From: Agathobaculum sp. Marseille-P7918
Lineage (GTDB): Bacteria > Bacillota > Clostridia > Oscillospirales > Butyricicoccaceae
DNA: 52,147 bases
Direction of reading: 5' to 3'
NCBI RefSeq assembly: GCF_900625105.1
Contig: NZ_UYYD01000013.1
Location: 1 to 52,147 of the forward strand
Under the pieces are notes generated by a model, which saw only the letters and a program-made list of their open reading frames with translations, did not search any database and was not told the origin of the DNA. Positions 30,152-51,571 of this stretch are shown piece after piece. Numbering within the stretch: position 1 is the first letter of the stretch; each line of letters opens with the position of its first letter. Made by a program: the position numbers and the translations under genes.

Positions 30152-30169
30152 CCTGATGGGCTTTTTGAA

Positions 30170-30345
30170 TTAGCCGAAGTAACGATGCAGCAGGCCCTCG
30201 AAAGCCTTGCCATGACGGGCTTCGTCGCGAGCCATCTCGTGGACGGTGTCGTGGATGGCGTCCAGGTTCAGCTCCTTGGCCTTCTTGGCCAGGTCGGTCT
30301 TGCCCTGGGTAGCGCCGTTCTCGGCGTCCACACGCATCTCCAGGT
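30170..30345 (-). pseudogene. Displaced 3' fragment of reverse rubrerythrin
   Basis: Encodes the last ~57 codons of a reverse rubrerythrin ([14 protein letters not shown] to GLLHRYFG, stop TAA), without a start or any 5' part. By hand comparison it is about 85% identical in DNA to the 3' end of the complete gene at 43240-43782, and a 33-bp block is perfectly identical (30188-30220 and 43258-43290). Homology stops abruptly near 30345. It holds one set of the di-iron ligands ([11 protein letters not shown]) but cannot function alone. It marks the left junction of the element at about 30.2-43.3 kb. Confidence 0.85.
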
Positions 30346-30508
30346 AGCCAAACGGCTGCGCCGTTCGGCGCCGGACAGCGTGCAACAGCACGAATTGGGC
30401 TTCCTTCGGTGTTTTTGGTCATTTCCCCTCTTGCCACAATTGGATATTTTTCATTTGTGACGATTCCGTTTATTGCCACAAAAAATCCACAACACAGGAG
30501 GATTTGGC

Positions 30509-31720
30509 ATGGCAAAGCAGAATGACGCAGGGATCTACAAATTGAAAAATGGGAATTGGGGCTATCGCTATGTTGTGATGGTCAATGGCGTCCGCAAGGA
30601 GGCCAGGAAAACCAAAGATGAATTTGGTACGCCCTTCAAAACAAAACGGGAAGCAATAAAGGCGCGGCAAGCTGCCATTGACCGGGAACAGAATTCCCGC
30701 AAGCCCAAACCTACGGTGCGGAAAACCATTCAGGAGGTCTATCAGGAATACTGTGCCACGGGCCGTAGTGATCGGGCCTACAACACCATCCGCAAACAGG
30801 ACAGCTTGTGGAAGAACCACCTTTCCGCTCGGTTCGGCAACCGCTTCGTGGATGAAGTCAGCGCGGCGGAGGTGGTAGACTATCTGACGGAGCTTTATTG
30901 CGGGCGGGGCCTCTCCTACCGCTATGTGGAGAGCTTTCTAAAACAGTTCTACTTGCTCTTCGGTCAGGCGTATTCCCGAAACTACCTAGATGTGGATTCC
31001 TACAGCAAGCTCTGTATCAACAAAGATACCAAAATTCACATGCCTAAACTGAAAACGGACGATGATCTGGATATTGTGGCGTTCAGCAAGGAAGAACTTG
31101 CCGTATTGGATGATTACTTCCATGGAACCAATGCGGAAACGGCGTACTTGCTGGGACGGTATTGCGGCCTTCGTATCAACGAGTGTTACGGCCTCAAATG
31201 GTCAAATGTCGATGTGGTCAACGGGACGATCTTGATTGACCGTCAAATGCAATACCAGAACGGCCTTATCAAACTGGTGTCGCTGAAAACCCGCAACGCC
31301 AAACGCACCATTTACATGTGCGACAAATTGAAAGTGTATTTTCAAAAGCTAGCCGAGCGACGGGAACAGGATATGCTCCAATACGCCACCCTGCGGGAAC
31401 AGAACCAGCGTATCATAGAGGACTTAGGGGGCAAGAAGATTCCTTCCACGGAGCTTGTGAACTGTCTACCAGATGGAAAAATCCAGACGGTGAACTCCAT
31501 GAAATACCCCTCGCGGGAACTCAAAAGCAAGTATCACATCATGTTCAAATACCACTACCTGCGCCACACCTACGGAACCATGATGGCAGAAATGAATACC
31601 CCCACCCACCTTCTCTGCAATCAGATGGGACACGGGAATATCCAGGTCACGCAGCGGTATTATATTGCTCTTTCCAGAACAGGCATTGATATTTTACGGG
31701 ATAATCTAAATCAGCTATAA
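30509..31720 (+). CDS. int: Tyrosine-type integrase
   Basis: 403 residues from the ATG at 30509 (CACAGGAGGATTTGGC upstream). An N-terminal arm-binding-type domain and a core-binding SAM-like domain precede the catalytic domain. Catalytic residues are visible: Arg222 in GLRINE, Lys in KTRNAKR, H349-x-x-R352 in YHYLRHTYG, His375 in MGHGN and the nucleophile Tyr384 in QRYY. It lies about 160 bp inside the left junction and so is the likely integrase of the element, acting at the rubrerythrin 3' end. Confidence 0.93.
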   Translation: MAKQNDAGIYKLKNGNWGYRYVVMVNGVRKEARKTKDEFGTPFKTKREAIKARQAAIDREQNSRKPKPTVRKTIQEVYQEYCATGRSDRAYNTIRKQDSLWKNHLSARFGNRFVDEVSAAEVVDYLTELYCGRGLSYRYVESFLKQFYLLFGQAYSRNYLDVDSYSKLCINKDTKIHMPKLKTDDDLDIVAFSKEELAVLDDYFHGTNAETAYLLGRYCGLRINECYGLKWSNVDVVNGTILIDRQMQYQNGLIKLVSLKTRNAKRTIYMCDKLKVYFQKLAERREQDMLQYATLREQNQRIIEDLGGKKIPSTELVNCLPDGKIQTVNSMKYPSRELKSKYHIMFKYHYLRHTYGTMMAEMNTPTHLLCNQMGHGNIQVTQRYYIALSRTGIDILRDNLNQL

Positions 31721-33176: not shown

Positions 33177-34214
33177 TTATTCAAAATACAGCCCGCTAAT
33201 TTCATCAATAAAAGCTTTCATATCTTGTATCGTATCAACAGGATTTAAAATTTTTGCTCTCTTTCCGAACCCACATACCCACGCAAAAAATTGATTGCTG
33301 ATTTCTACATCGGCGGTCACAACAAAATGCTTTTCATCGTCCCGCCTATAAAATACATCGGGACTTGTTCCAAACCGCTCGACTGCCGTATCAAGCAAGG
33401 AATTGATAAACCGGATACTGACGCGCTTCCGCTCCCCGCCAAACATGGAGAACACGCGGCGGGTATAACTTTCGATGTCGATTTTGGAAAACTCTTCTGC
33501 TCCCTCTCGCGGTTCATTAAGAAGTTTTACTTCCTTCATTCGATCAACACGATATGTAGCGATTTGTGGTGCCTTTCTATTACCAGCAGGCCCATAACCC
33601 AGCAGATAATAATTCCCTTCGTTTATCAGCAACTTGTAGGGGCTTACTTTGTAAATGGCCCCTTTGCGGCGCTCCACCTGTATTATTCCGTTTTGAAGTG
33701 TATATTTCAAATATTTGAAGCTGATTTTCTGCGGAATGTGGGGCTTGCCGTCTTGCCTGGTAGCCATAGCCTGATTGATCTTTGTAATGATCGCCATGGT
33801 TCCCTTTTGGGTTGTTTTCACCCGGTCGCACAAAAACACTTCCCGTTGAAGCTGCTCCGCCTGATAGGTGCTGCAAAACTCGCCCAGCGTGTCCACCAAA
33901 TCTTTCGCTTGCCGGGCGGATATGAACTTTGCCGCATGGACACACTCGGCCAGCAACCGCAGATCATCAAACTCAAATTGACGGGACAGCAGCCGGTATT
34001 TCCCGCCCTGCCCGCCTTCTATATCCATCCCAAACACATCCCGCAGGGCGGCAATATCCCGGTAGATGGCGCGGCGCTCCGCTTCAATCCCGCACTCATT
34101 TTTCAGATAGTCCACTACATCCCCGGCGGTAACAGGGTGGTTCTCGTCGGAGTTCTCCAAAAAGTATTTGGCAACATAGAGCGTTTTCACTTTTTGGTTT
34201 TCTGACTTTGCCAT
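33177..34214 (-). CDS. WYL-domain transcriptional regulator
   Basis: 345 residues from the ATG at 34214 (GCGAGGCGGCAC upstream). The N-terminal HTH region runs KTLYVAKYFLENSDENHPVTAGDVVDYL with ERRAIYRDIAALRDVFGMDIE. The WYL domain is visible around residues 150-240 (SPYKLLINEGNYYLLGY, TYRVDRMKEVKLL), followed by a WCX-type C-terminal extension. These regulators bind nucleic-acid or nucleotide ligands and often repress defence or DNA-damage genes. It is the first gene of a pair with the unknown 460-residue protein. Confidence 0.88.
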   Translation of the reverse strand: MAKSENQKVKTLYVAKYFLENSDENHPVTAGDVVDYLKNECGIEAERRAIYRDIAALRDVFGMDIEGGQGGKYRLLSRQFEFDDLRLLAECVHAAKFISARQAKDLVDTLGEFCSTYQAEQLQREVFLCDRVKTTQKGTMAIITKINQAMATRQDGKPHIPQKISFKYLKYTLQNGIIQVERRKGAIYKVSPYKLLINEGNYYLLGYGPAGNRKAPQIATYRVDRMKEVKLLNEPREGAEEFSKIDIESYTRRVFSMFGGERKRVSIRFINSLLDTAVERFGTSPDVFYRRDDEKHFVVTADVEISNQFFAWVCGFGKRAKILNPVDTIQDMKAFIDEISGLYFE

Positions 34215-34320: not shown

Positions 34321-34884
34321 TCAAACAAGCTGTGCGTGGTTCTGTATTGCTGTTTCGATCCGTTGCGGCTCAATTCCAATATACCGCTGTGTGACGGCGG
34401 CGGAACTGTGCTGTAATAGCCGTTGTACCAGGGCAATATCATAGCCATTCGCCTTGTATATCTCCGTGGCGTACCACTTGCGAAAGCTGTGCGTGCTGAT
34501 CCCCTCAAAGCCCAAGTAATTGCACACGATATGGAGCTGCTTCTGTATAGCCCTCTCGGTGATAGGGAATATCCGGGCATTTCGGTCTATGCCGTTGCGC
34601 AGGCAGTAGTTTTCTATGTATTGCTGGATAACCAGCGGAACGGTGAACACCCGGCCCTTGCCGGTTTTCTGCTCGGTGATCTCCAGGCGGTATCTGTCCC
34701 CGTCCCGGACAATATCGCAGGGCCGCAGCTTCAATATATCGCTGATCCGCAAGCCTAAATTTCCTTCCAGCACCAGGGCGGTGGCTATTCGCTCATTAGG
34801 GCGGCAGCCGCTGAACCCCTCGCGCATGGTCTGTATAATCTCCTTGTATTGCTCGGTGGTGAGCGCCTTGGTTTTCTTGTTCAT
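34321..34884 (-). CDS. Small tyrosine recombinase (catalytic domain only)
   Basis: 187 residues from the ATG at 34884 (GATGGAGGCCACC upstream). It has little more than a catalytic domain: Arg in NLGLRISDIL, His-x-x-Arg in THSFRKWYA, His in LLQHSSAAVTQRYIG and the Tyr in the same block. No arm-binding or SAM-like N-terminal domain is present beyond ~30 residues. Such proteins act as resolvase-like Xer enzymes or accessory recombinases on plasmids and ICEs. A lox-like inverted repeat lies just upstream (34980-35005). Confidence 0.88.
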   Translation of the reverse strand: MNKKTKALTTEQYKEIIQTMREGFSGCRPNERIATALVLEGNLGLRISDILKLRPCDIVRDGDRYRLEITEQKTGKGRVFTVPLVIQQYIENYCLRNGIDRNARIFPITERAIQKQLHIVCNYLGFEGISTHSFRKWYATEIYKANGYDIALVQRLLQHSSAAVTQRYIGIEPQRIETAIQNHAQLV

Positions 34885-34901
34885 GGTGGCCTCCATCGTC
34901 A

Positions 34902-35005
34902 AAAGTTCGTTTTTTCAAGCGGGAAAGTTCGTGTATTTCGGGCGGCGGTGGAAAGGTCCTGTGATTGCTTGGTTTTGGTGTTCGTATTTCTGGACTTATA
35001 CGAAC
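34902..35005. repeat. Lox-like inverted repeat with accessory repeats
   Basis: GTTCGTAT (34980-34987), 10-bp spacer, ATACGAAC (34998-35005). Two further copies of AAAGTTCGT are at 34902 and 34924, and ATTTC with flanking G residues recurs after two of them. Short inverted arms around a small spacer next to a tyrosine recombinase gene are the layout of a Cre/Xer target site. The arms resemble loxP in TTCGTAT/ATACGAA only, which may be coincidence. Confidence 0.4.
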
Positions 35006-35044: not shown

Positions 35045-35692
35045 TCAACCGGCCAGCACCATCCGCTCATTACAGTCCAAGCAAGCGATATTTACCGCTT
35101 TGGTAGCCCGAACGGAATTCCCGCAGCAGGGGCAGATATACTTTCTCGTGCTGGACGGACGCGGCGGCGGGGTGGTTCCTGTGCCGCTGTGCGTCCCGGT
35201 GCCGGTGACCTGGAAACTGGCAAATTCATTGCGGTTTATGAGAATGTCGGTCAAGCCGTTCTCCAATACGAAGTCCAGCAGCTCGTCAGATGGGCTTGTG
35301 TGGCTCCATCCGTATTTGTCGCTATGCTCCACTATCAGGCCATGGGCTTCGGCGGCGGCTTTGAAGCGCCGGTTGTGGTAGGTGTTGCCCCGGCTGCAAT
35401 CCTGCACGCCGTTCTCGAAGTTGTAGTAGTGAACCATTTCGTGAAGCAGGGTCGCCGCCACTTCCTCAATGGGGCGAGCCAGTGTCCCGGCCCCGATATT
35501 GATTTCATGGGTGCCGCCCAGCTTGGAAACCCAGGTATCTTCCCGGAGGGAGAAGTGCCCGTAGGCGCGGGGCGTGGACTGGATGGTGATGGTGGGTCTT
35601 GAAAGTGTACCTTCAAAGAATTCAGCGTTTAGCAGATCGAACACTTTGTTGAGATACCCGGCCACGCGGTTATAGCTTGTCAGTTCCTTCAT
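35045..35692 (-). CDS. SprT-like zinc metalloprotease domain protein
   Basis: 215 residues. The zincin motif HEMVH is at residues 84-88 (TLLHEMVHYYN), with the supporting block GNTYHNRRFKAAAEAHGL. The C-terminus has a zinc ribbon (ICPCCGNSVRATKAV then CLDCN). SprT-like domains occur in DNA-protein crosslink proteases (SPRTN); copies are common on Clostridia ICEs and plasmids, where a role at replication or transfer forks is possible but untested. A Thr/Gly/Pro linker joins the two domains. Confidence 0.88.
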   Translation of the reverse strand: MKELTSYNRVAGYLNKVFDLLNAEFFEGTLSRPTITIQSTPRAYGHFSLREDTWVSKLGGTHEINIGAGTLARPIEEVAATLLHEMVHYYNFENGVQDCSRGNTYHNRRFKAAAEAHGLIVEHSDKYGWSHTSPSDELLDFVLENGLTDILINRNEFASFQVTGTGTHSGTGTTPPPRPSSTRKYICPCCGNSVRATKAVNIACLDCNERMVLAG

Positions 35693-35821: not shown

Positions 35822-36100
35822 TCATGCGCTGATGGTGAAGCGGCGGCTCTGGCTCTGCTTGGTGAAGGCTTTGTAGAGGTCGCCGTACACCTTTTTGAAA
35901 GCGGTGGTGTCGAAGCGGTTGGAGAGAACGGAAGTCCAGCGGACGATGTACTTTCCAGCGGCCAGCTCTTCGGTGTCGCGCTCCATCATTTCGGCCTTGA
36001 TGCTGTCCCGAATGGCTTCGGCCTCCGCCTTGGCCTCTTCAATAACAGCCTCCCACTCGTTCAGCGCCTCGATCTTGGCTACCAGTTCATTCTTGCTCAT
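35822..36100 (-). CDS. Small conserved-looking hypothetical protein
   Basis: 92 residues, unrecognised. The N-terminal ~45 residues form an acidic helix (LVAKIEALNEWEAVIEEAKAEAEAI), followed by a short beta/alpha portion (GKYIVRWTSVLSNRFDTTAFKKVYG). The length and helical start recall Gp157-like phage proteins, a weak similarity. A good ribosome binding site (AAAGGAGAGCTGAAC) precedes the ATG. It is divergent from the HTH gene at 36309 across a region with three palindromic operators, so it is probably repressed by that HTH protein. Confidence 0.65.
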   Translation of the reverse strand: MSKNELVAKIEALNEWEAVIEEAKAEAEAIRDSIKAEMMERDTEELAAGKYIVRWTSVLSNRFDTTAFKKVYGDLYKAFTKQSQSRRFTISA

Positions 36101-36308: not shown

Positions 36309-36515
36309 ATGCCCATCAAATACAAGGTTGATGTAATTGCAGCCCTGAAAGAAGCAGGGTACAACACTACCAAGATTCGGAAAGACAAGATCATGGGCGA
36401 AGCCATGTTGCAAAAAATTCGCAGCGGCCAGATGGTTTCTTGGGCCACACTTGAAACTATTTGTGAACTGCTGAACTGCCAGCCCGGCGACCTGATCGAG
36501 TACGTCAAGGAATAG
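36309..36515 (+). CDS. Small Cro/C1-type HTH regulator
   Basis: 68 residues, almost entirely one HTH_XRE-type domain of the YozG-like group: VDVIAALKEAGYNTTKIRKD, then MLQKIRSGQMVSWATLETI, ending CELLNCQPGDLIEYVKE. The start at 36309 follows AGAGGAGAAAAGCC. It probably binds the TTACAC-N9-GTGTAA palindromes in its own upstream region and so autoregulates. The stop is TAG and overlaps the ribosome binding site of the next small gene. Confidence 0.85.
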   Translation: MPIKYKVDVIAALKEAGYNTTKIRKDKIMGEAMLQKIRSGQMVSWATLETICELLNCQPGDLIEYVKE

Positions 36516-36526
36516 GAGATGCTGCC

Positions 36527-36658
36527 ATGTTTGGAGACACAGACCTGCCCCTTGCCCTCATTATGGAAGAGATTTTAGGTTGGGAGAAGAAACCCGGTCA
36601 AAAGGATGAAGAAGAGGGAGAAAACCAGCAGAAAGACACAACTTTCAAAAAGTTTTGA
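36527..36658 (+). CDS. 43-residue small protein
   Basis: Begins MFGDTDLPLALIMEEILGWE and has a Lys/Glu/Gln-rich tail ending TFKKF, stop TGA. TAGGAGATGCTGCC gives a ribosome binding site, and the gene lies 11 nt after the HTH gene, so the two are cotranscribed. A strong terminator follows. Function unknown; it could be an antitoxin-like or regulatory peptide. Confidence 0.5.
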   Translation: MFGDTDLPLALIMEEILGWEKKPGQKDEEEGENQQKDTTFKKF

Positions 36659-36712: not shown

Positions 36713-37045
36713 TTATTTAAAATAATACTTGACCGTCTTATCCAGCTTCTCGTGGAACGCCTGGGAAAGCTCCTGCTCGGCCTTGGCAGTGATCTTCTTG
36801 GTGCTGCTGTCAATCACGCTTTTTGCCACAGCATCCACCAGATCGCGCCGCTGCATGAGAAAATCATAGAAGCGCTGGCGGCGGCTCTGCTCGTCTTGCC
36901 AATCCGCCTTCGCCCGCTTGTAATTTTCAAAAGCATTTGGGGCGGACCTGCTTTGTGCCGCAAGTGCGGCCTCTATCTGGGTGAGATGGTTCGCGCTGTC
37001 CTGGCGCTCAAAGTCCTGCAAAATCTAAAGTAGTTCGTGAAACAT
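36713..37045 (-). CDS. Hypothetical protein with in-frame TAG at codon 7
   Basis: 110 codons from the ATG at 37045, which has an excellent ribosome binding site (GAAGGAGGAAACGTTC), to TAA. Codon 7 is TAG (37025-37027): the frame reads MFHELL-TAG-ILQDFERQDSANH. The only alternative start is TTG at 37021, with no ribosome binding site. TAG is one transition from CAG, and Gln fits the sequence. The product is a soluble helical, Gln/Lys-rich protein of unknown function (AKAEQELSQAFHEKLDK near the C-terminus). It lies 130 bp downstream of the PrimPol gene that shows the same peculiarity. Confidence 0.6.
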
Positions 37046-37175: not shown

Positions 37176-39392
37176 TTAACTTGAAATTCTTCGATAATGG
37201 TTCCTACACACGCGCTCAATCAACCCGTTTTTGATGAGACGTGAAATTTTGTCTTTGTTTATCCCTTGTGCGGCTAATTCGGCGGCAGTCCATTCATCTC
37301 CTGTGACCGCTGCAAAGTTCCGCTCCGCCGCTGCGCGGCTTCTCGCTTTTCCTAACTTGGCGGCATTTTCTTTATTTGAAGCGGCGGTGATGTTGTATTG
37401 ATAATCTTCAAAGGCCAAATCCTACATACTCACATCAAATGACCTTGTCTCGGCCCATGCAAAGTCTGGGTTACTTTTATCCAGCTCCACCTTGTAAATA
37501 TGTTCTCCGAGCGGAATACCGTCAACATCGTTGTAATCTAGCAAAGCTTTGATGTAATTCCCAATTCTTAAATCGCACTCGTCCAACGCTGGTTTTGTCA
37601 GCCCCATTCTTACACCATTACGCCACCAAAGGCGCGGCTTTAGGATAGCTTGTAAACGGTCGTACTTCTCCTTGTATGAAAGTTTTTTACTCCCGATAGC
37701 AAGACGAATTTCCATATTTACACGGGCCTATTGCTGGATGGCTTCAAAGCGCAAAGTAATATCATCGTTTACAATCTCATAGTGCCGCACTCCTTTTTCC
37801 ACCTCTACCGTGTAAAAGGCGTTTTCGGTTCGCGGCAACTCCTTTTTCAAATTCGGTGCCCATCCATAATAGACCAACAGCGCGGCGGCTTCTTCCTCTG
37901 TATTGGACACATCTAAACACGCCTGCCAATTTTGACTGAGTTCAACATTTGTTGTGTAATGTAAGGCAAACTGGATGAACTTTACAATCTCATTTCCATT
38001 AGTAAGCGGCGGCGGCATTTTATACTTGCGTCTGAAATAAAAGATTGCCCGGTATCTCTCACTGTATGGAAGCACTTGCAGCTTATCATTAAGTGGCTTC
38101 ACTTGCTTTTTATAGGACTTGAACGCACTTCCAGATAGTAGTGCGATTACATCATAAGCAGTTACCGATTTATTTCCGCTGTCGGGCAATAAGAAGCGGT
38201 CTGAATTCTTTTGAAGCTGGATAACCAGATCGCCAAACTGAAATTGCTCGTCCGGGAGAGGTGCAGCGGTGGTGCTATCTTCCAGCATACTGAACCAATT
38301 ATCTCCGAGCGGAAGCGGGACTCGCGACTCTGCGTTTTGGTTTGGCTCTTCCTCCAGATCGTCAAGTTCGTTTTGAGTCCCCTGCATAATGTCGGCCCAA
38401 TTGCTATCCCAAAGTTTACTATCCGGCCCAATCTCACAAATATAGTCCCATGTGTTCACACAACTTTGAGGCTGGAATGTTTCCCCAGGCTTACTCCAAT
38501 ACAGGAACACTTTTCCACCTAAATCAGCGCCGAACACATGAAAAATATCAATACCAACGGAAAGCCATTTTTTCTGTTTCCAGTTAGGTGATTTTTTCTC
38601 TTTCAAATCGGCAAAGACCCTTCGCTGCTCTGCGCTCATTTGCTGCAATAGCGCTTCTTCGGAACGCTCTTCCAGCATGGGATAACTCCTGTTGCCTTTA
38701 CTGCTTGCGTGTTTGCCTTTGCCTCTGCTCATGGGACGCGACAAGTCAAAGTTTTCCTTGATAAGCTGATAAAGTTCTTGCGTCTTATCGGTCAGCCCAA
38801 CGGTATTGTCCCATGGCTCCCATTCATAAATGAAATGGCGTGCGTCACAGAACATATCCACCTTGTTCTTGCCGTCTGTTGTGACATTGCTCATTTTGCA
38901 GACAAAGCTCGGGGTTCCGCCTGCCGTCAGCAGATTGATGCCGTCAAAAAGCGGCGTGGCGGCGGTTTTGTCTACTCCATAAAACATGTGATAGCCGCCG
39001 CCCTGTGACCGTGTTACCTTATCGGCCAGTTGATAAGCCGCTTGAAAGAAACTGCTGCCAGTGTCGATCTCTCCGTCGATCTTGTCAAAGTCGATCACAA
39101 AAATATAGAGGTCACCATACTTGGCGCAATCCAGATACAGGCTGACACGCAGACTATCGTCACCGCTGGTACGCTTATCTCTTTGCCAATATTCATTGAG
39201 CGTTTGAACTGCCTATTCATAGGAAAGCTCATAGTATCGGTAGAGTTCACCATCTTTTCCGCCAAAGAGCTTTTTCGGCCGTCCTTGTCCGTCAATATAC
39301 ATGGGGACTTTCATCGTCTTGCTTTGTTCGCCGCTGCCACTCTTGGACTTGCCGCCCAAAACAAAGCAATTGTTGTAGGTTGAAGCGTTCAT
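37176..39392 (-). CDS. PrimPol-type replication protein interrupted by three in-frame TAG codons
   Basis: A single frame of 739 codons from the ATG at 39392 (AAGAAAGGACTAACCCAC upstream) to TAA at 37176-37178. It is broken only by TAG at codon 60 (39213-39215), 555 (37728-37730) and 657 (37422-37424). The N-terminal PrimPol domain has catalytic Asp101/Asp103 in VIDFDK and the loop SQGGGYHMF near 129-137. A PriCT-like block follows (KWLSVGIDIFHVFGADLGG, then YWSKPGETF). The C-terminus looks like a winged helix (WTAAELAAQGINKDKISRLI). If TAG is read as stop, it splits into pieces of 59, 494, 101 and 81 codons. No other stop or frameshift is present. It is probably the replication initiator or primase of the element. 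Confidence 0.7.
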
Positions 39393-40152
39393 GTGGGTTA
39401 GTCCTTTCTTATAGAATAAAACAAACAGCAAGGAAACTGGTGATCCCCTAGACGGGATGGAAGCAACCCACAAACTTCCAATACACCTACTGCCTTGCTG
39501 CTTGTTTCATCCTACAAAAGAGCGATTTTTAGCTTTTTACCTCTTTCCTACTTTCTATTTATATTATAACACAAAAAATTTTTTAGGGCAAAAAAACGGA
39601 ATAACGCTCCCATTTTCCTGATTCTGCAACAAAGTAATTACCTTTCTTTGAAAATTCGTCACTTTACCTTTTGAAGTTGCCAGCACTTCTCAAAAGTTCT
39701 TTCAGAGTTGTCAGTTTTGTTCAGAAGTTGAGCATTTGCGGGTGAAGATTGCTTCTTGAAAGTGCAGTTTCAACTTGGAGCGGAACCCTGATTGCGAGCG
39801 GGTGAAGGAATTACCCTCGCAAGAAGGCGACCGGGAAGGGGTGGGATACCCCCATGTAGAGTGAATAAATGTTCCGGCCACACCAGGGCGGGGGATGGTT
39901 TCGGGATAGCGCATTTGTAATTCGCGGCGGCGGCTTTTCTTGGCATTTTTCCCGACCGCTGAAAAAAGACGGGGAACACGGACGATTGCGGCAGACACGG
40001 GAGTTGGCAGCGTACAAATAAAATTTTCACGAAACACTATGCAGCCAGGATATTGTATTGACCACATAGGGCCGTTAAGATTATTGTGTGAGATTAGATG
40101 TGCTTTGATATAGAAAATGGGAGGCAGAATTTCTTCCACTTCCCATCCACGT
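39393..40152. other. 760-bp stretch without a convincing gene
   Basis: A minus-strand frame at 39711-40139 is open but has no ribosome binding site or family character. The segment 39800-39960 is GC-rich with short hairpins, e.g. GGGGTGGGATACCCC at about 39838-39852. On the minus strand, AAATGCGC-TATCCC (around 39906-39920) resembles the nic core of MOBQ-type oriT (RSF1010 AAATGCGCCCTCCC). It may hold an oriT or a regulatory RNA. Confidence 0.35.
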
Positions 40153-40457: not shown

Positions 40458-41537
40458 ATGAAAAAACAACTGTCTCTTGTACTTGCAGCAACCTTGATGC
40501 TATCTTTGGCAGCGTGCGGCAGTGGAGAAACACCGAACGGCGGGGCATCCGAAACTGAAGTTAATGCCACACAAGAGGCGCAAAGCGGCTCTATTCAAAG
40601 TAAAGGGCTATTTCTCATAGAACGGGCAGAAGGAGATGAATTGGACGATCTAACCGCCCAGGAAACCTATTTGATTCATGTCTACGATATTGTGCCAGAT
40701 GAATCTAAAAATGTAGATATGGGTGTTTTCGAGTCCAACTATTCTATAACAATGAACGGGGTCAATACTTACGAACCGTTGTATGCGCCAGCCAGCTATT
40801 CCCTTGACAGCCCCACTACTCCCAATCGCGCTCAATACTTTATGCTGGCCAGCGGCTATGCAGCTCCTCCAGAACTTGGAACCGTTCTTGCCGGGGGCGA
40901 CCCGATCCGGGCCATGTCTATTTATAAGATCAACACGAACGACATAAAAGATAACATGACTGCAACATTTACGGTGGATAGCTGCGACGTATTCGATTGT
41001 GAAATAAATTTTGATCGGGATGACATTATCAGTATTGCCCGATTTGACGATGTTTTCCAGATTGAAGATAATCCGACAGACTATCAGATTGCCGCCGCTT
41101 ATTTCCAGCGTGTAAAAACCATCTGCAACAACTCCATGACAGGCACTTTGTTTAACAAATTGGGCAGTAATGGTCTGACCTCTTATCAGGACGGTATTAC
41201 GGTCATAAAAGGCTGGTACGATTATGCTGTATTCAGCGCTACACAGCTAGAGGGCTTTACTGAAGAGCTGGCAGACGCGGAAACCGCCATTGCACCCGAT
41301 GATATTCCCCGCTTTGACCGTGAAGCTGTAAAACGCGTCCATCCCGATTTGCCGGTAGACGAGTTTGAGGACGCGCTGGCATCTTGGCTGACCAATGGAC
41401 AAACCGCTTTGGACGCACTAAGCGGCGGACAGGATAGCGGAGAAGCCGGTGACTTGGCCGACACTGCCATTGCAAACATGCAAACATACGGCCCACAAAT
41501 CATAGCATACTACACCGCAAAACTCAGCAATCAATAA
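40458..41537 (+). CDS. Surface lipoprotein of unknown function
   Basis: 359 residues. Lipoprotein signal peptide with lipobox LAAC (cysteine at 20), then a Gly/Ser/Glu-rich linker and a soluble extracellular domain of about 300 residues, not recognised. No membrane helix follows the signal. AAAAAGGAGTGGTAAA precedes the ATG. It is cargo of the element, so an interaction with the surroundings or surface exclusion is possible; nothing in the sequence decides. A perfect 14-bp terminator follows. Confidence 0.8.
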   Translation: MKKQLSLVLAATLMLSLAACGSGETPNGGASETEVNATQEAQSGSIQSKGLFLIERAEGDELDDLTAQETYLIHVYDIVPDESKNVDMGVFESNYSITMNGVNTYEPLYAPASYSLDSPTTPNRAQYFMLASGYAAPPELGTVLAGGDPIRAMSIYKINTNDIKDNMTATFTVDSCDVFDCEINFDRDDIISIARFDDVFQIEDNPTDYQIAAAYFQRVKTICNNSMTGTLFNKLGSNGLTSYQDGITVIKGWYDYAVFSATQLEGFTEELADAETAIAPDDIPRFDREAVKRVHPDLPVDEFEDALASWLTNGQTALDALSGGQDSGEAGDLADTAIANMQTYGPQIIAYYTAKLSNQ

Positions 41538-41597: not shown

Positions 41598-42038
41598 TCA
41601 AGCGCCCTTCTGCTCCTTCTTCTCTTCCTGCTTCTTCTGAAAGGCAGCAAGATCAATCACCTTGGGCGCATTGTTGCCAAAATCGGGCAGCTCCTTGTAC
41701 TTGGGGAACTGGGCCTCAAACCAATCCCGCACAAATTTGTACGGGCTGGGCTGCTCCAGGGAACAGGTCTTGACTACCTCAAACTGGGCCAGCAGCTCGT
41801 CGGCGTTCTGGAACACGCTCATGTACTTCTCCATATTGGCGTAGGTCAGGTTTTTGGTGGGGCGGGCCTTCTTGGGAGCGCGGCGGGTCTTGCGGATAAT
41901 GGTCAGGCCGGGAAAGTCGGCGCGGATTTGCTGCAACAGCTTGTACTCCTGAGAAGTGGGGTTGCTGGCGGCATCCTCAAAAGCCTTGGTCATGGTCAGG
42001 GTGTTGTTCACAAAGTCGATCTTGTAAGTATTCTTCAT
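41598..42038 (-). CDS. Unknown protein, paralogue of the gene at 42328-42762
   Basis: 146 residues. It shares with the protein at 42328-42762 an N-terminal ..T-x-T-KAFE block, the motif KNLTYANMEKYM, a PY(K/R)-x-V-x-x-W(F) block and (Q/K)FPKY. The family is not recognised; the protein is soluble and basic in the centre (TRRAPKKARP). A Lys/Glu/Gln-rich tail ends it. A good ribosome binding site (AAGGAGGAAAATACC) precedes the ATG. Third gene of a leftward three-gene operon. Confidence 0.7.
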   Translation of the reverse strand: MKNTYKIDFVNNTLTMTKAFEDAASNPTSQEYKLLQQIRADFPGLTIIRKTRRAPKKARPTKNLTYANMEKYMSVFQNADELLAQFEVVKTCSLEQPSPYKFVRDWFEAQFPKYKELPDFGNNAPKVIDLAAFQKKQEEKKEQKGA

Positions 42039-42327: not shown

Positions 42328-42762
42328 TTAGAAATTGGAAACGACCTTAAGGTTGTCGGCGTCCTCGGCGGTAGGTTCTGCCGCCTCACCGTTGTCAGCA
42401 AAGAATGCCTTGTATTCGTCATACTTGGGGAACTTGGCAAGGAACCAGGCCAGCACCGCACGATAGGGATTCTGCTGGATGGCGGCGGTCTCCTTCTGAT
42501 CGTTGAACTCCTTGATAAGCGCCTTGCCGTTGGGCTGCATGTTCAGGAAGCGCTCCATGTTGGCGTAGGTCAGATTCTTGTAGGTGCGCTTGCTGGTGTT
42601 CTTCTTAATGGTCTTGGTCACCATCTGGGCGCTGGGGAAATCCTGGCGGTAAGCTCTCCACTCTCTGTATTCGGGAGTACCGAAGATACGGGCCTGCTTC
42701 TCGAAAGCCTTGGTGACCTGGGCGTGGGTATCGTCGATGTAGATGATAGCGTTCTTTTTCAT
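42328..42762 (-). CDS. Unknown protein, paralogue of the gene at 41598-42038
   Basis: 144 residues. First gene of the leftward operon, with AAGGAGAATATCACC before the ATG. It has the same motif string as its paralogue: VTKAFEKQA, KNLTYANMERFL, NPYRAVLAWFLAKFPKY. The central part is Lys/Thr-rich (KTIKKNTSKRTYKNL), which could contact nucleic acid. Function unknown. The two copies differ enough to be an old duplication. Confidence 0.7.
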   Translation of the reverse strand: MKKNAIIYIDDTHAQVTKAFEKQARIFGTPEYREWRAYRQDFPSAQMVTKTIKKNTSKRTYKNLTYANMERFLNMQPNGKALIKEFNDQKETAAIQQNPYRAVLAWFLAKFPKYDEYKAFFADNGEAAEPTAEDADNLKVVSNF

Positions 42763-43239: not shown

Positions 43240-43782
43240 TTAGCCGAAGTAGCGCTTCAGCAGGCCCTCGAAAGCCTTGCCATGACGGGCCTCGTCGCGC
43301 GCCATCTCATGTACGGTGTCGTGGATCGCATCCAGGTTCAGAGCCTTGGCACGCTTTGCCAGGTCGAACTTGCCAGCGGTAGCGCCGTTCTCAGCGTCAA
43401 CACGCATCTCGAGGTTCTTCTTGGTGGAGTCGGTTACGACTTCGCCCAGCAGCTCTGCGAACTTCGCAGCGTGCTCAGCCTCTTCGTAAGCAGCCTTCTC
43501 CCAGTACAGGCCGATCTCCGGATAGCCCTCGCGGTGTGCAACGCGCGCCATCGCCAGGTACATGCCAACCTCGGAGCACTCGCCCTCGAAGTTAGCGCGC
43601 AGATCCTTCATGATGTCTTCCGGAGCGCCCTGCGCTACGCCGACAACATGCTCAGCCGCCCAGGTCTTCTCGCCGGACTGCTCCTTGAACTTCTCAGCCG
43701 GAGCATGGCAGATCGGGCACTCAGCCGGAGCCGCTTCGCCTTCATAAACATAACCACATACGGAACAAACGAACTTCTTCAT
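43240..43782 (-). CDS. Reverse rubrerythrin (NADH peroxidase component)
   Basis: 180 residues. The N-terminal rubredoxin domain has two Cys pairs (FVCSVCGYV and AECPICHAP), followed by the ferritin-like di-iron domain ([32 protein letters not shown]). Rubredoxin-first order defines reverse rubrerythrin of clostridia, which reduces H2O2 and O2. The start follows AGGAGGAAAAAATC. The last ~57 codons are duplicated at 30170-30345, so the C-terminus may have been supplied by the integrated element. It lies 34 nt after an Rrf2 regulator gene. Confidence 0.92.
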
Positions 43783-46153: not shown

Positions 46154-47149
46154 TTACGCGGTGAACAGCTGCGCCCAGTACGCGGTGCCGTTTACCACCG
46201 TGTAGCCCACGCCGATGGTCGTGAAGCTCTCGTTTAAGATATTCGCGCGGTGGCCGGACGAGTTCATCCACGCATTCACCACCTGCTGCGGCGTGGACTG
46301 GCCGTAGGCGATGTTCTCACCCGAACGGGTATAGGACACACCCGCCTCGGTCAGCGCGGTCGAGAAGGACGAGCCGTTCGGACGCGTATGCGAGAAGGAC
46401 TGCACGGTCTCGGCCGCGCGCACCTGCGCCGCCTGCTGTACAAGGCTGTCCACCTTCAGCGCGGACAAGCCGTACTTGGCGCGCTCCGCATTGACCAGCG
46501 CTACCACCTGCGAGGCATAGTCGCCCTGCGAGGTTCCGTTATCCTGCTCGGGCGTCTCCTCCGGGGTTTGCTCGGGCTGTTCCGGGGTCACTTCCGGCTG
46601 TTCCGGGGTCACTTCCGGCTGCTCCGGGGTCACTTCCGGCTGCTCCGGGGTCACTTCCGGCTGCTCCGGGGCCTGATCGGGCTGCTCTGCGTCCGGCGTC
46701 TGCTCCGGCTGCTCGATATCCGGCGTTTGCTCCGGCTGCTCGATGTCCGGCATCTGCTCCGGCTGCTCGATGTCCGGTGCTTCCTCCGGCTGCTCTGCGT
46801 CCGGCGTCTGCTCCGGCTGTTCGATATCCGGCATTTCCTCCGGCTGCTCGATGTCCGGCATTTCCTCCGGCTGCTCGATGTCCGGTGTCTGCTCCGGCTG
46901 CTCGAGGTCCGGCGTCTGCTCCGGCTGCTCCACGTCTGGTGTCTGCTCCGGCTTATTTCCCGGGAATTGGCCGCAGATCAGCGCGAAATACTTTTCCAGC
47001 AACTGTTGCCGGAAACCGGATTCATATACATAAGTATAGACGCCTGCCGGGCGGTTCACCGCCTCCAGCGGCAGGTCTGCCGCCCCCGCCGCCGCGGTGG
47101 TCGTCATCACCGCCGCCAGCGCCAGCGGTACGATTTTCTTCAGCTGCAT
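46154..47149 (-). CDS. Secreted CAP-domain protein with Pro/Glu/Gln repeat spacer
   Basis: 331 residues. Signal peptide (MQLKKIVPLALAAVMTTTAA), a short domain, then a repetitive spacer of about residues 66-205. The spacer consists of ~18 degenerate copies of EQPE(Q/E/V)(T/M/A)P(D/E). A C-terminal CAP/SCP domain follows, with VVALVNAERAKYGLSAL, SHTRPNGSSFSTAL, GENIAYGQSTPQQVVNAWMNS and SGHRANIL. It is typical of YkwD-like proteins of spore formers. The spacer probably spans the cell wall. The DNA repeats invite length variation by slippage. Confidence 0.9.
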   Translation of the reverse strand: MQLKKIVPLALAAVMTTTAAAGAADLPLEAVNRPAGVYTYVYESGFRQQLLEKYFALICGQFPGNKPEQTPDVEQPEQTPDLEQPEQTPDIEQPEEMPDIEQPEEMPDIEQPEQTPDAEQPEEAPDIEQPEQMPDIEQPEQTPDIEQPEQTPDAEQPDQAPEQPEVTPEQPEVTPEQPEVTPEQPEVTPEQPEQTPEETPEQDNGTSQGDYASQVVALVNAERAKYGLSALKVDSLVQQAAQVRAAETVQSFSHTRPNGSSFSTALTEAGVSYTRSGENIAYGQSTPQQVVNAWMNSSGHRANILNESFTTIGVGYTVVNGTAYWAQLFTA

Positions 47150-49673: not shown

Positions 49674-50357
49674 CTACTCGTCCGGAAGGAGTTCTTCTAA
49701 GTATGGCTTCAATTCCAATATCAACTCATACACTTTTGTGCATGGATTTCTTTGAGACGGCAGCAAAGATTCATCATACTGTTTATCCAATTTACGTGCA
49801 TTTTTTACTGCCTTTTGCAATCCACCATTTGCACTCAACATGGGAAATAGTTTAATCGCCTCATCTGTCTTATGTGCATGATCTAACCCGGTAATAGCGT
49901 TTACACGTGAAGACCACTCATGTGCCAGTGCCCCCGCGTCATAATAATTATGATGCAAACAAAGCCACAACTCAAAGCACACATTACTCCAAGCAATACG
50001 ATATCCCTTTGCTTCAGCCCTGCATATTGCGTCATCAAAGTCCACGAAATTATCTCGATCAAACACTAACCAAACATGCTGGTATACTTTATTTCCTCGT
50101 GAGACATACTTTTCCGCTTCTTCAAGAAGCCTCCCTGTACTGCAGCCGGCTCCCTCACAACAAATAGCCGGTCGAATTTCGATCTGTCCTTGCTTAAATT
50201 TTTGTTCAATATACTGTTTTATCCCATTAAAATATCCCGGCTCAGTTTTTGTCCCTTCAGTAAGAATCAAAAACGAATCTGGCGCAGATGATCGAAAGTT
50301 ATGCGCTCTTTCTCTCGGTATCCCACTTTTACGTTTTTCAAAAAACGTTCTGCTCAT
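49674..50357 (-). CDS. rloB: RloB-family TOPRIM-like protein
   Basis: 227 residues. The RloB domain has the TOPRIM-like motif FLILTEGTKTEPGYF (E34 and E39) and WLVFDRDNFVDFDDA (D100, D102). The downstream block KGYRIAWSNVCFELWLCLHH is typical of the family. Its start overlaps the rloA stop by 4 nt. RloB is probably a nuclease controlled by the RloA ATPase; similar ATPase/TOPRIM pairs (e.g. PARIS AriA/AriB) defend against phage. Confidence 0.88.
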   Translation of the reverse strand: MSRTFFEKRKSGIPRERAHNFRSSAPDSFLILTEGTKTEPGYFNGIKQYIEQKFKQGQIEIRPAICCEGAGCSTGRLLEEAEKYVSRGNKVYQHVWLVFDRDNFVDFDDAICRAEAKGYRIAWSNVCFELWLCLHHNYYDAGALAHEWSSRVNAITGLDHAHKTDEAIKLFPMLSANGGLQKAVKNARKLDKQYDESLLPSQRNPCTKVYELILELKPYLEELLPDE

Positions 50358-51571
50358 TCTACGTTCTCCCCCAGAATCGGGATAGCACCATAATTTCCTG
50401 CTAAATAGTTTTTCCTCAAAGAGGCATCATTTCTGACTTTGAAATCAGCTAACGAAAACAGTTTAGACTCATTCCCTATTTTCTCAACAAACCAAACCTG
50501 ATCTCGACGCATATATTTCTTATCCAACAAATTCACATCATGCGTTGCAAAAATTAATTGTTCATTTGCTCCATTTTCATAAAACCGATTTACGAAATAT
50601 TTTGTGAGCAATGGATGCAAATGCGCATTCATTTCATCGAAAACATAAGTGCACTCATAACTCATTTCATTCCCAACAATTAAATATAATGCCAATGCTT
50701 TTATTGTTCCTGCAGATTCTTTTTCCAACGGCATTAAATAGCGATTGCCACTATCATCCACATGAATTGTATATACCTGTAAATCACGGTTATCTTGCTG
50801 ATACATCTCAAAATCAACAATGTTAACATCAATTTGGTTTAGATAACTTATTAGTCGTTTCTTAGCTCGCTCTTTTTGCAATTCGTCTTCTAAACGAATG
50901 CTAACCCATTCCTGACTCATATTTGCCCGACTAACATCCCAAACAAACAGAGAAGTGCACGCCAACCGAGCATGTGTCCAAACGGTATCAGGCAATTTTA
51001 TCTGGTAGAAAAATGTTAAAAGCAATACTTGGTCTTTCAAACCTGGAACATATTTCTTGCATTCATGATCAACTTTTTCGCCAAACTCGATACCACTGGT
51101 CACATCTCTTTCAAACACAACCTCTTGTTTGCCTTCTTTTTTATTAATATATAACCATTCATATTGAATTGAAAATTCATCATAGGTAAAACCATACTGA
51201 TACTCTACACCAAAAAGTGATACACATGCTTCAAATTCAGTTGGTTCATGTGAACTATTCTGATCAAATTGAAACGGGGTATAATATTTTCTCAGTGCAC
51301 GGTCTTCCTTTAGATCGATTATGGGATTCACATGTTCGGAAGTGTTTGACATTGAATATAATATCATGTTACGAAAACATTCTATCGCCTTTATAAAATT
51401 ACTTTTTCCACTTGCATTTGCACCATAAATTGCAGCCGTTTTCACAACATTCTGATTTCCCGCCTGCATCACGTGATCCGGAAGTTCCTTATATGCATTT
51501 ACTGCCCGCATATCGAAAAAGGCTTCTTCGTGAAACGGGCCGTAATTCTTAAATCGAAACCAAAGTAACAT
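50354..51571 (-). CDS. rloA: RloA-family AAA ATPase (AAA15/ABC-like)
   Basis: 405 residues. N-terminal FKNYGPFHEEAFFDM is typical of SMC/OLD-like ATPases. Walker A is GANASGKSN (50-58), the signature-like block EKESAGTIKALAL, Walker B CTYVFDEMNAHLHP and the switch histidine ATHDVNLL. A coiled or insert region lies between. It forms an operon with rloB through an ATGA overlap. The ATPase probably senses phage infection or DNA ends and licenses RloB. Confidence 0.9.
   Translation of the reverse strand: MLLWFRFKNYGPFHEEAFFDMRAVNAYKELPDHVMQAGNQNVVKTAAIYGANASGKSNFIKAIECFRNMILYSMSNTSEHVNPIIDLKEDRALRKYYTPFQFDQNSSHEPTEFEACVSLFGVEYQYGFTYDEFSIQYEWLYINKKEGKQEVVFERDVTSGIEFGEKVDHECKKYVPGLKDQVLLLTFFYQIKLPDTVWTHARLACTSLFVWDVSRANMSQEWVSIRLEDELQKERAKKRLISYLNQIDVNIVDFEMYQQDNRDLQVYTIHVDDSGNRYLMPLEKESAGTIKALALYLIVGNEMSYECTYVFDEMNAHLHPLLTKYFVNRFYENGANEQLIFATHDVNLLDKKYMRRDQVWFVEKIGNESKLFSLADFKVRNDASLRKNYLAGNYGAIPILGENVE

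Follow-up and report, generated by a model that had tools for sequence, protein, structure and literature searches.

In the 52,147-nucleotide stretch of Agathobaculum sp. Marseille-P7918 analysed here (the window, which is the whole of contig C24 in a genome of 2.83 Mb and 36 contigs), an integrated element of about 13 kb carries a replication operon whose genes are interrupted by in-frame TAG codons. Comparison with related elements suggests that UAG is decoded as glutamine in this operon, which comprises a putative primase gene and a small partner gene (g2), and we put the probability of this reading at roughly 0.8. Elsewhere in the element, we conclude, UAG is a stop.

Read from an ATG at 39392, the primase gene is a single minus-strand frame of 739 codons (37176-39392) that ends in TAA (37176-37178), and its sole interruptions are three TAG codons, at codons 60 (39213-39215), 555 (37728-37730) and 657 (37422-37424), with no other stop. 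This bears out what had been claimed from the letters and their open reading frames (ORFs) only, without database searches (hereafter the sequence-only reading). That reading had confined the recoding to the primase gene; its primase TAGs are real, but it overlooked a fourth TAG in the next gene downstream, so that the whole operon is involved. This gene, the small and conserved g2 (36713-37045, minus strand), has an AAGGAGG-like site ahead of its ATG, a TAG at codon 7 (37025-37027) and a TAA end.

Relatives were sought with the 494-residue TAG-free piece of the primase. Neither phages nor plasmids nor viral contigs yielded a match to it, and a profile search of the viral contigs likewise gave none. 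In a genome collection it matched loci in Flavonifractor sp. An306 (L051), Colidextribacter sp. OB.20 (L052) and a metagenome-assembled Oscillibacter genome (L053), and among 99 genomes of relatives two contained it, that of the window and G017, which belongs to the same genus. When 394 genomes of the window's order were searched with a four-row profile, only that of the window matched; in the family of An306 the profile matched 6 of 400 genomes (An306 included), and in the genus of G792 it matched 4 of 64, of which two were known beforehand. Nine elements have a largely complete replication operon, namely those of the window, L051, L052, L053, L136, L137, L139, L140 and L175; the truncated or chimeric copies L138 (whose frame hits a TAG on running into unrelated sequence), L141 and L176 were excluded from the TAG counts. 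In the subfamily formed by L052, L053, L137, L140 and L175 the primase is two genes, a and b, separated by a TAA or TGA that precedes the TAG sites.

In-frame TAG codons are present in the replication operons of eight of the nine elements. Their 18 replication ORFs (6783 codons) hold 20 TAGs at 12 sites and not one nonsense TAA or TGA, and eight further gene families of the elements have no TAG in 7734 aligned codons (Fisher P 2.4e-7, only nominal because the gene copies are related). The small gene of the L052/L053/L175 type (403 codons in high-scoring segment pairs with L137, no TAG) lies outside the 6783 codons and the MFGDT-type gene (301 codons in such pairs, with one TAG in L053 that was taken as terminator) outside the 7734; two TAA/TGA counted under the second primase gene come from an L137 match extending across the end of gene a, and the small gene of L137 stays open beyond the usual end of its family. 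A fragment at a contig edge in G017, from the genus of the host, has one TAG and was counted only as a 13th site. Among the single-base neighbours of the operon codons TAG makes up 43-47% of the possible new stops, and the probability that all sites would be TAG by chance is about 4e-5 to 1e-4 for 12 of 12 and about 2e-5 to 5e-5 for 13 of 13. The replication frames use CAA (119) nearly as often as CAG (136), yet nonsense TAA is absent. The base after the TAG varies (G, A, C or T), and three of the 12 sites fall within the first 10 codons (nominal P 0.003). A six-frame scan with marked stops was also tried; its TAG matches were for the most part noise, antisense or out of frame, and only true genes were used afterwards.

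The positions of the TAGs vary from element to element, and several recur: L051, L136 and L139 have TAG at primase codon 4, and L051 and L136 also at primase codon 570 and at g2 codon 10; the window and L139 share the TAG at g2 codon 7, and L052, L137, L140 and L175 share the AFP/AFG-TAG-DY site of gene b; the three primase TAGs of the window are in no relative. Recurrence between genomes argues against assembly error, an argument that covers g2 codon 7 (shared with L139, whose genome is one contig) and not the three primase TAGs of the window. Alignment of g2 gives LL-TAG-ILQDFERQ in the window and L139 and LLQIL-TAG-DFERQ in L051 and L136, where the glutamine at codon 7 is CAA, so that TAG and glutamine are swapped reciprocally at codons 7 and 10 between two clades.

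Past the TAGs common to diverged elements the sequence is mostly under purifying selection, as judged by the ratio of nonsynonymous to synonymous substitution rates (dN/dS). For g2 this ratio is 0.13 between the window and L139 (dS 0.43) and 0.07 between L051 and L136 (dS 0.19), and for gene b of L052, L137 and L140 it is 0.25-0.38 (dS 0.43-0.69). Since the next in-frame start past the codon-10 TAG of g2 in L051 and L136 is codon 64, reinitiation fails to account for the conserved stretch in these two elements.

The residue for which UAG would stand is indicated by the orthologues. Opposite the TAGs they have glutamine more often than any other residue. Nine TAG columns can be aligned, and in eight of them one or more orthologues have glutamine (P 1.5e-7 when all columns serve as the comparison, 1.0e-5 when columns with a polar focal residue do); with the G017 site the figure is 8 of 10 alignable sites (P 7e-7 and 5e-5, using an assumed null for the added site). 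Codon 451 of L136 is glutamine in seven aligned relatives and glutamate in the diverged window. In the window itself codon 60 can be aligned and has glutamine in two of nine relatives (E, E, E, R, E, R, N, Q, Q), and around codons 555 and 657 the sequence has diverged. The sequence-only reading had proposed that TAG is glutamine, and this gains support from the homologues, from the selection past shared TAGs and from the lack of nonsense TAA or TGA in the frames.

Several observations weigh against UAG being glutamine in the operon. The L053 operon has no TAG, and gene b of L140, which bears one, is cut by a breakpoint with a TGA directly after it. After their last TAG (codon 570) L051 and L136 differ with a dN/dS of 0.87 at a dS of only 0.035, which is uninformative to relaxed. 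Three TAG sites have no homologous column, codons 555 and 657 of the window among them; at one L139 site the nearest relatives have lysine and further ones P, S or N; and the G017 site has glutamate in L051 and, by eye, glutamine in none. A glutamine match by itself is no proof of decoding, because a CAG-to-TAG mutation also leaves glutamine in the relatives. In addition, the host genomes end genes with TAG as a minor stop (codon scoring in sampled stretches predicted 130, 64 and 58 genes, of which 6, 7 and 9 end in this way), and the HTH regulator gene of the elements ends in TAG in five of eight of them, the window included, as the sequence-only reading had stated for 36309-36515. The MFGDT-type gene likewise ends in TAG in four of eight. 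Reassignment of the codon is incomplete, as TAG frequently terminates regulator genes in these elements. A contrast of terminators (TAG ends in 9 of 16 regulators and in none of 21 replication ORFs) was dropped as circular, since the ORFs of the replication genes had been defined by reading through TAG and so could never end in it.

The search for a decoder also went against this reading. ARAGORN finds only a tRNA-Gly in the window, in keeping with the earlier statement that no suppressor tRNA is visible there, and none of the 54 tRNA matches of the window's genome has a CTA anticodon, nor does any of the 49 and 54 ARAGORN tRNAs of An306 and OB.20. The Rfam tRNA matches of the L051 and L052 genomes number 57 and 57 at E up to 10, weak ones included, and those of the L053 genome 35; anticodons were read for the genomes of the window, L051 and L052. 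A tRNA-shaped pattern with CTA had 19 matches in six genomes (two as one contig), for none of which ARAGORN names a CTA tRNA: 10 of the loci hold recognised tRNAs, none of them CTA, and nine hold no tRNA. Within the elements no CUA suppressor tRNA was detected by ARAGORN (window and element loci) or Rfam (window, L051, L136, L137 and L139). Relaxed ARAGORN settings returned hundreds of chance tRNAs in the window and were not used. As for a resident recoded helper, none was identified: nine terminase matches (two under cut-off) in five of six genomes contain no internal TAG, a scan that does not exclude helpers absent from the genomes or of other terminase types.

One alternative is that the operon is dispensable in the chromosome, so that TAG mutations, mostly CAG to TAG, pile up in a dying gene. 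A C-to-T change at CAG would account both for TAG and for the glutamine of the relatives, the genomes scanned yielded no decoder, constraint is missing in one comparison (L051/L136 after codon 570), and some copies are damaged, L138, L141 and L176 being truncated or chimeric and L140 having a breakpoint in gene b. We nevertheless regard such decay as very improbable, since it would have to produce no TAA although CAA is nearly as common as CAG, leave the primase frames without nonsense TGA or frameshift, let TAGs be shared at dS 0.4-0.7 with a dN/dS of 0.13-0.38 beyond them, and exchange TAG with glutamine in both directions between clades. The sequence-only reading had argued that decay would bring mixed stops and indels, and no such pseudogene pattern is seen, apart from L051/L136 after codon 570 and the L140 breakpoint. 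Production of the pieces as separate proteins, by reinitiation past each TAG, could make use of a TTG two codons past the g2 TAG in the window and L139 and of a TTG after the codon-4 TAG of L051, and the primase truly is two genes in one subfamily; it seems scarcely credible, however, given that the stretch skipped before codon 64 in g2 of L051 and L136 is conserved, that relatives carry glutamine straight through the same columns and that the actual split of that subfamily is in another place, at a TAA or TGA ahead of the TAG sites. Homologues that are separate proteins with boundaries at the TAGs were not encountered.

Pyrrolysine or some other non-standard amino acid at UAG could be suggested by the presence of UAG inside genes of anaerobic gut bacteria; its probability is next to nil, since PylS was above cut-off in none of seven genomes (the control search was above cut-off in 1 of 14 control genomes) and the orthologues have glutamine. 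Closer to decoding as glutamine, which it overlaps while differing in decoder and efficiency, is a leaky gate in which an ordinary host tRNA-Gln reads UAG inefficiently and keeps the level of replication protein low without any dedicated suppressor. Bacterial tRNA-Gln can misread UAG, the hosts carry normal tRNA-Gln(CTG) and tRNA-Gln(TTG), and the excess of TAGs in the first 10 codons suits a gate. The primases of the window, L051, L136 and L139, however, each need two or three readthroughs, by which the yield would drop multiplicatively, and the variable base after TAG provides no common readthrough context; we therefore hold this explanation to be unlikely, if still of some weight.

If UAG is indeed glutamine in the operon, full-length replication proteins would be made only when the cell reads UAG in this way, and replication would thus be gated by a translational switch. 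Integration and repression could run in the standard code while replication waits for UAG decoding, and such a gate would be cheapest in the first ten codons, where a quarter of the TAG sites fall. The favoured decoder is a suppressor tRNA-Gln(CUA) that a UAG-recoding phage or some other mobile element supplies in trans, a source to which we assign somewhat less than even odds. Regulated misreading by host Gln tRNAs is the chief alternative and a more doubtful one, weakened because one primase needs two or three UAGs passed, and a tRNA that escaped recognition has a smaller chance still. We tentatively postulate, as a possibility that is far from assured, an amber-gated element in which the UAGs silence the replication genes until a recoding phage or element supplies a suppressor tRNA-Gln. 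Should this be true, the element would sense and exploit the genetic code of another entity, and, in members whose HTH gene ends in TAG, the same switch could make the repressor longer and might even inactivate it.

The operon resembles the code 15 gut phages (crAss-like phages, phAss-1), in which UAG is glutamine in a standard-code host and TAG is limited to some genes. It differs from them in that the element is integrative, measures about 13 kb and has no recognised capsid gene, in that TAG was found in its replication operon only and is still used as terminator, and in that a suppressor tRNA with CTA anticodon (Sup-CTA) was not found. The last difference is qualified by a report of Sup-CTA in 375 of 715 code-15 phages (PMC11210395), so that phages lacking this tRNA exist. 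The sequence-only reading had invoked recoded gut phages; a recoded phage is not borne out here, as the scanned element proteins of the window gave no capsid or terminase match, no CUA tRNA was found in the element loci, and TAG is neither widespread nor shunned as terminator.

PrimPol-type primases also occur in phage satellites and in integrative mobilisable elements, which the element resembles in its integrase, HTH regulator, primase and small size and from which it differs in that the scanned element proteins of the window have no capsid, terminase or relaxase match. Programmed stop-codon readthrough also passes UAG in a standard-code cell, but it uses one conserved site with a conserved context, whereas here there are several UAGs per gene, at shifting positions and exchanged with glutamine. 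A full-text search on suppressor-tRNA recoding and mobile elements, satellites and integrative elements, which turned up papers on code-15 phages (for example PMC9523058, PMC10607447 and PMC7886860) and also PMC10879173, gave among the papers listed no description of TAG-recoded replication genes in an integrative element, and the claim to novelty rests on this search only. While recoding of UAG to glutamine is already known from phages, what would be new is a recurrent and apparently selected use of it in one operon, with hosts and the element's own regulators still stopping at UAG. Standard gene calling splits these replication genes, and what purpose a stop codon inside a replication gene serves can now be put to a direct test in gut bacteria, among which there are isolates.

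The assignment of the 739-codon frame as a replicative primase of the PrimPol / PriCT-2 type is suggested by PriCT_2, which exceeds its cut-off of 22 bits in the relatives L052 and L053 (24.2 and 26.3 bits); the window piece scores 17.4 bits, below that cut-off, and the profile search gave no PriCT_2 match in the L051 piece. No PrimPol profile match was obtained from Pfam or NCBIfam, nor any PDB profile match, and the AlphaFold model of primase piece 2 (pLDDT 44) was too poor for a fold search. The primase contains VIDFD and QGGGYHM motifs, which we take to be PrimPol-like. Its C-terminus (37179-37421, minus strand) resembles the AbiEi antitoxin winged-helix domain at an E-value of 7e-5, just under cut-off, and so does that of L051. 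Upstream of the gene lies a promoter-like region (39555-39580, minus strand) with TATAAT in all eight elements aligned, and between it and the start codon a 5' leader with a long hairpin (39390-39540, minus strand; folded for the window and L051), which corresponds to an aligned insert in L051, L136 and L139 and is missing in L052, L053, L137 and L140. A suppressor tRNA within this leader was considered on account of a CUA-like loop in the window hairpin and rejected, as L051 lacks the loop and the insert is missing from four elements. Lipoprotein-like genes were noticed by eye in the gap that precedes the primase in the window (40458-41537, plus strand), L139 (5564-6559) and L136 (4434-5453); that of the window has no match in L051.

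The element is an integrative mobile element, as both an integrase and a duplicated attachment site were found. It is placed at a gene that we presume to encode rubrerythrin (43240-43782, minus strand), the integration site, whose 3' end is duplicated at the opposite boundary (30164-30345, minus strand). Family searches identified a tyrosine integrase (30473-31720, plus strand), a WYL-domain regulator (33177-34211, minus strand), a second tyrosine recombinase (34321-34902, minus strand) and an SprT-like gene (35045-35692, minus strand) with no internal TAG in seven copies, which as a query of viral contigs recovered two distant loci of 41% and 34% identity. A conserved gene of 92 residues (35822-36100, minus strand) matches phrog_6244 and a RecE C-terminal-like profile. 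On the plus strand follow the HTH_26 regulator (36309-36515; VanU-like, below cut-off) that ends in TAG and the small conserved MFGDT-type gene (36527-36658; MFGDTDLPLAL...), which ends in TGA in the window and in TAG in L052, L053, L137 and L175; in L175 (5417-5881) the HTH gene and an MFPDTDL-type gene share one frame with a single TAG between them. Further upstream of the primase are a conserved element gene of 146 residues with no assigned function (41598-42038, minus strand), queries with which gave no relative in viral contigs, and its 144-residue paralogue (42328-42762, minus strand).

The copy of the element in An306 is flanked by 79-bp repeats that extend into two other contigs. A free circular form had been suggested by identical 79-bp contig ends and was discarded: the same 79 bases end C23 and begin C52, which places the An306 element integrated between repeats. 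At L139 (995-3672) the related element adjoins what we take to be a guaA-like (GMP synthase) gene, and its presumed integrase-like gene differs from that of the window, so that the replication module may be common to elements with different integration sites. Elsewhere in the window an adjacent gene pair (49674-51571, minus strand) matches the AbiL abortive-infection pair (AbiLi, E 9.6e-82; AbiLii, E 1e-26), and the gene at 46154-47149 (minus strand) encodes a secreted-type protein with a long EQPEQTPDIEQPEE repeat ahead of a presumably CAP-like domain.
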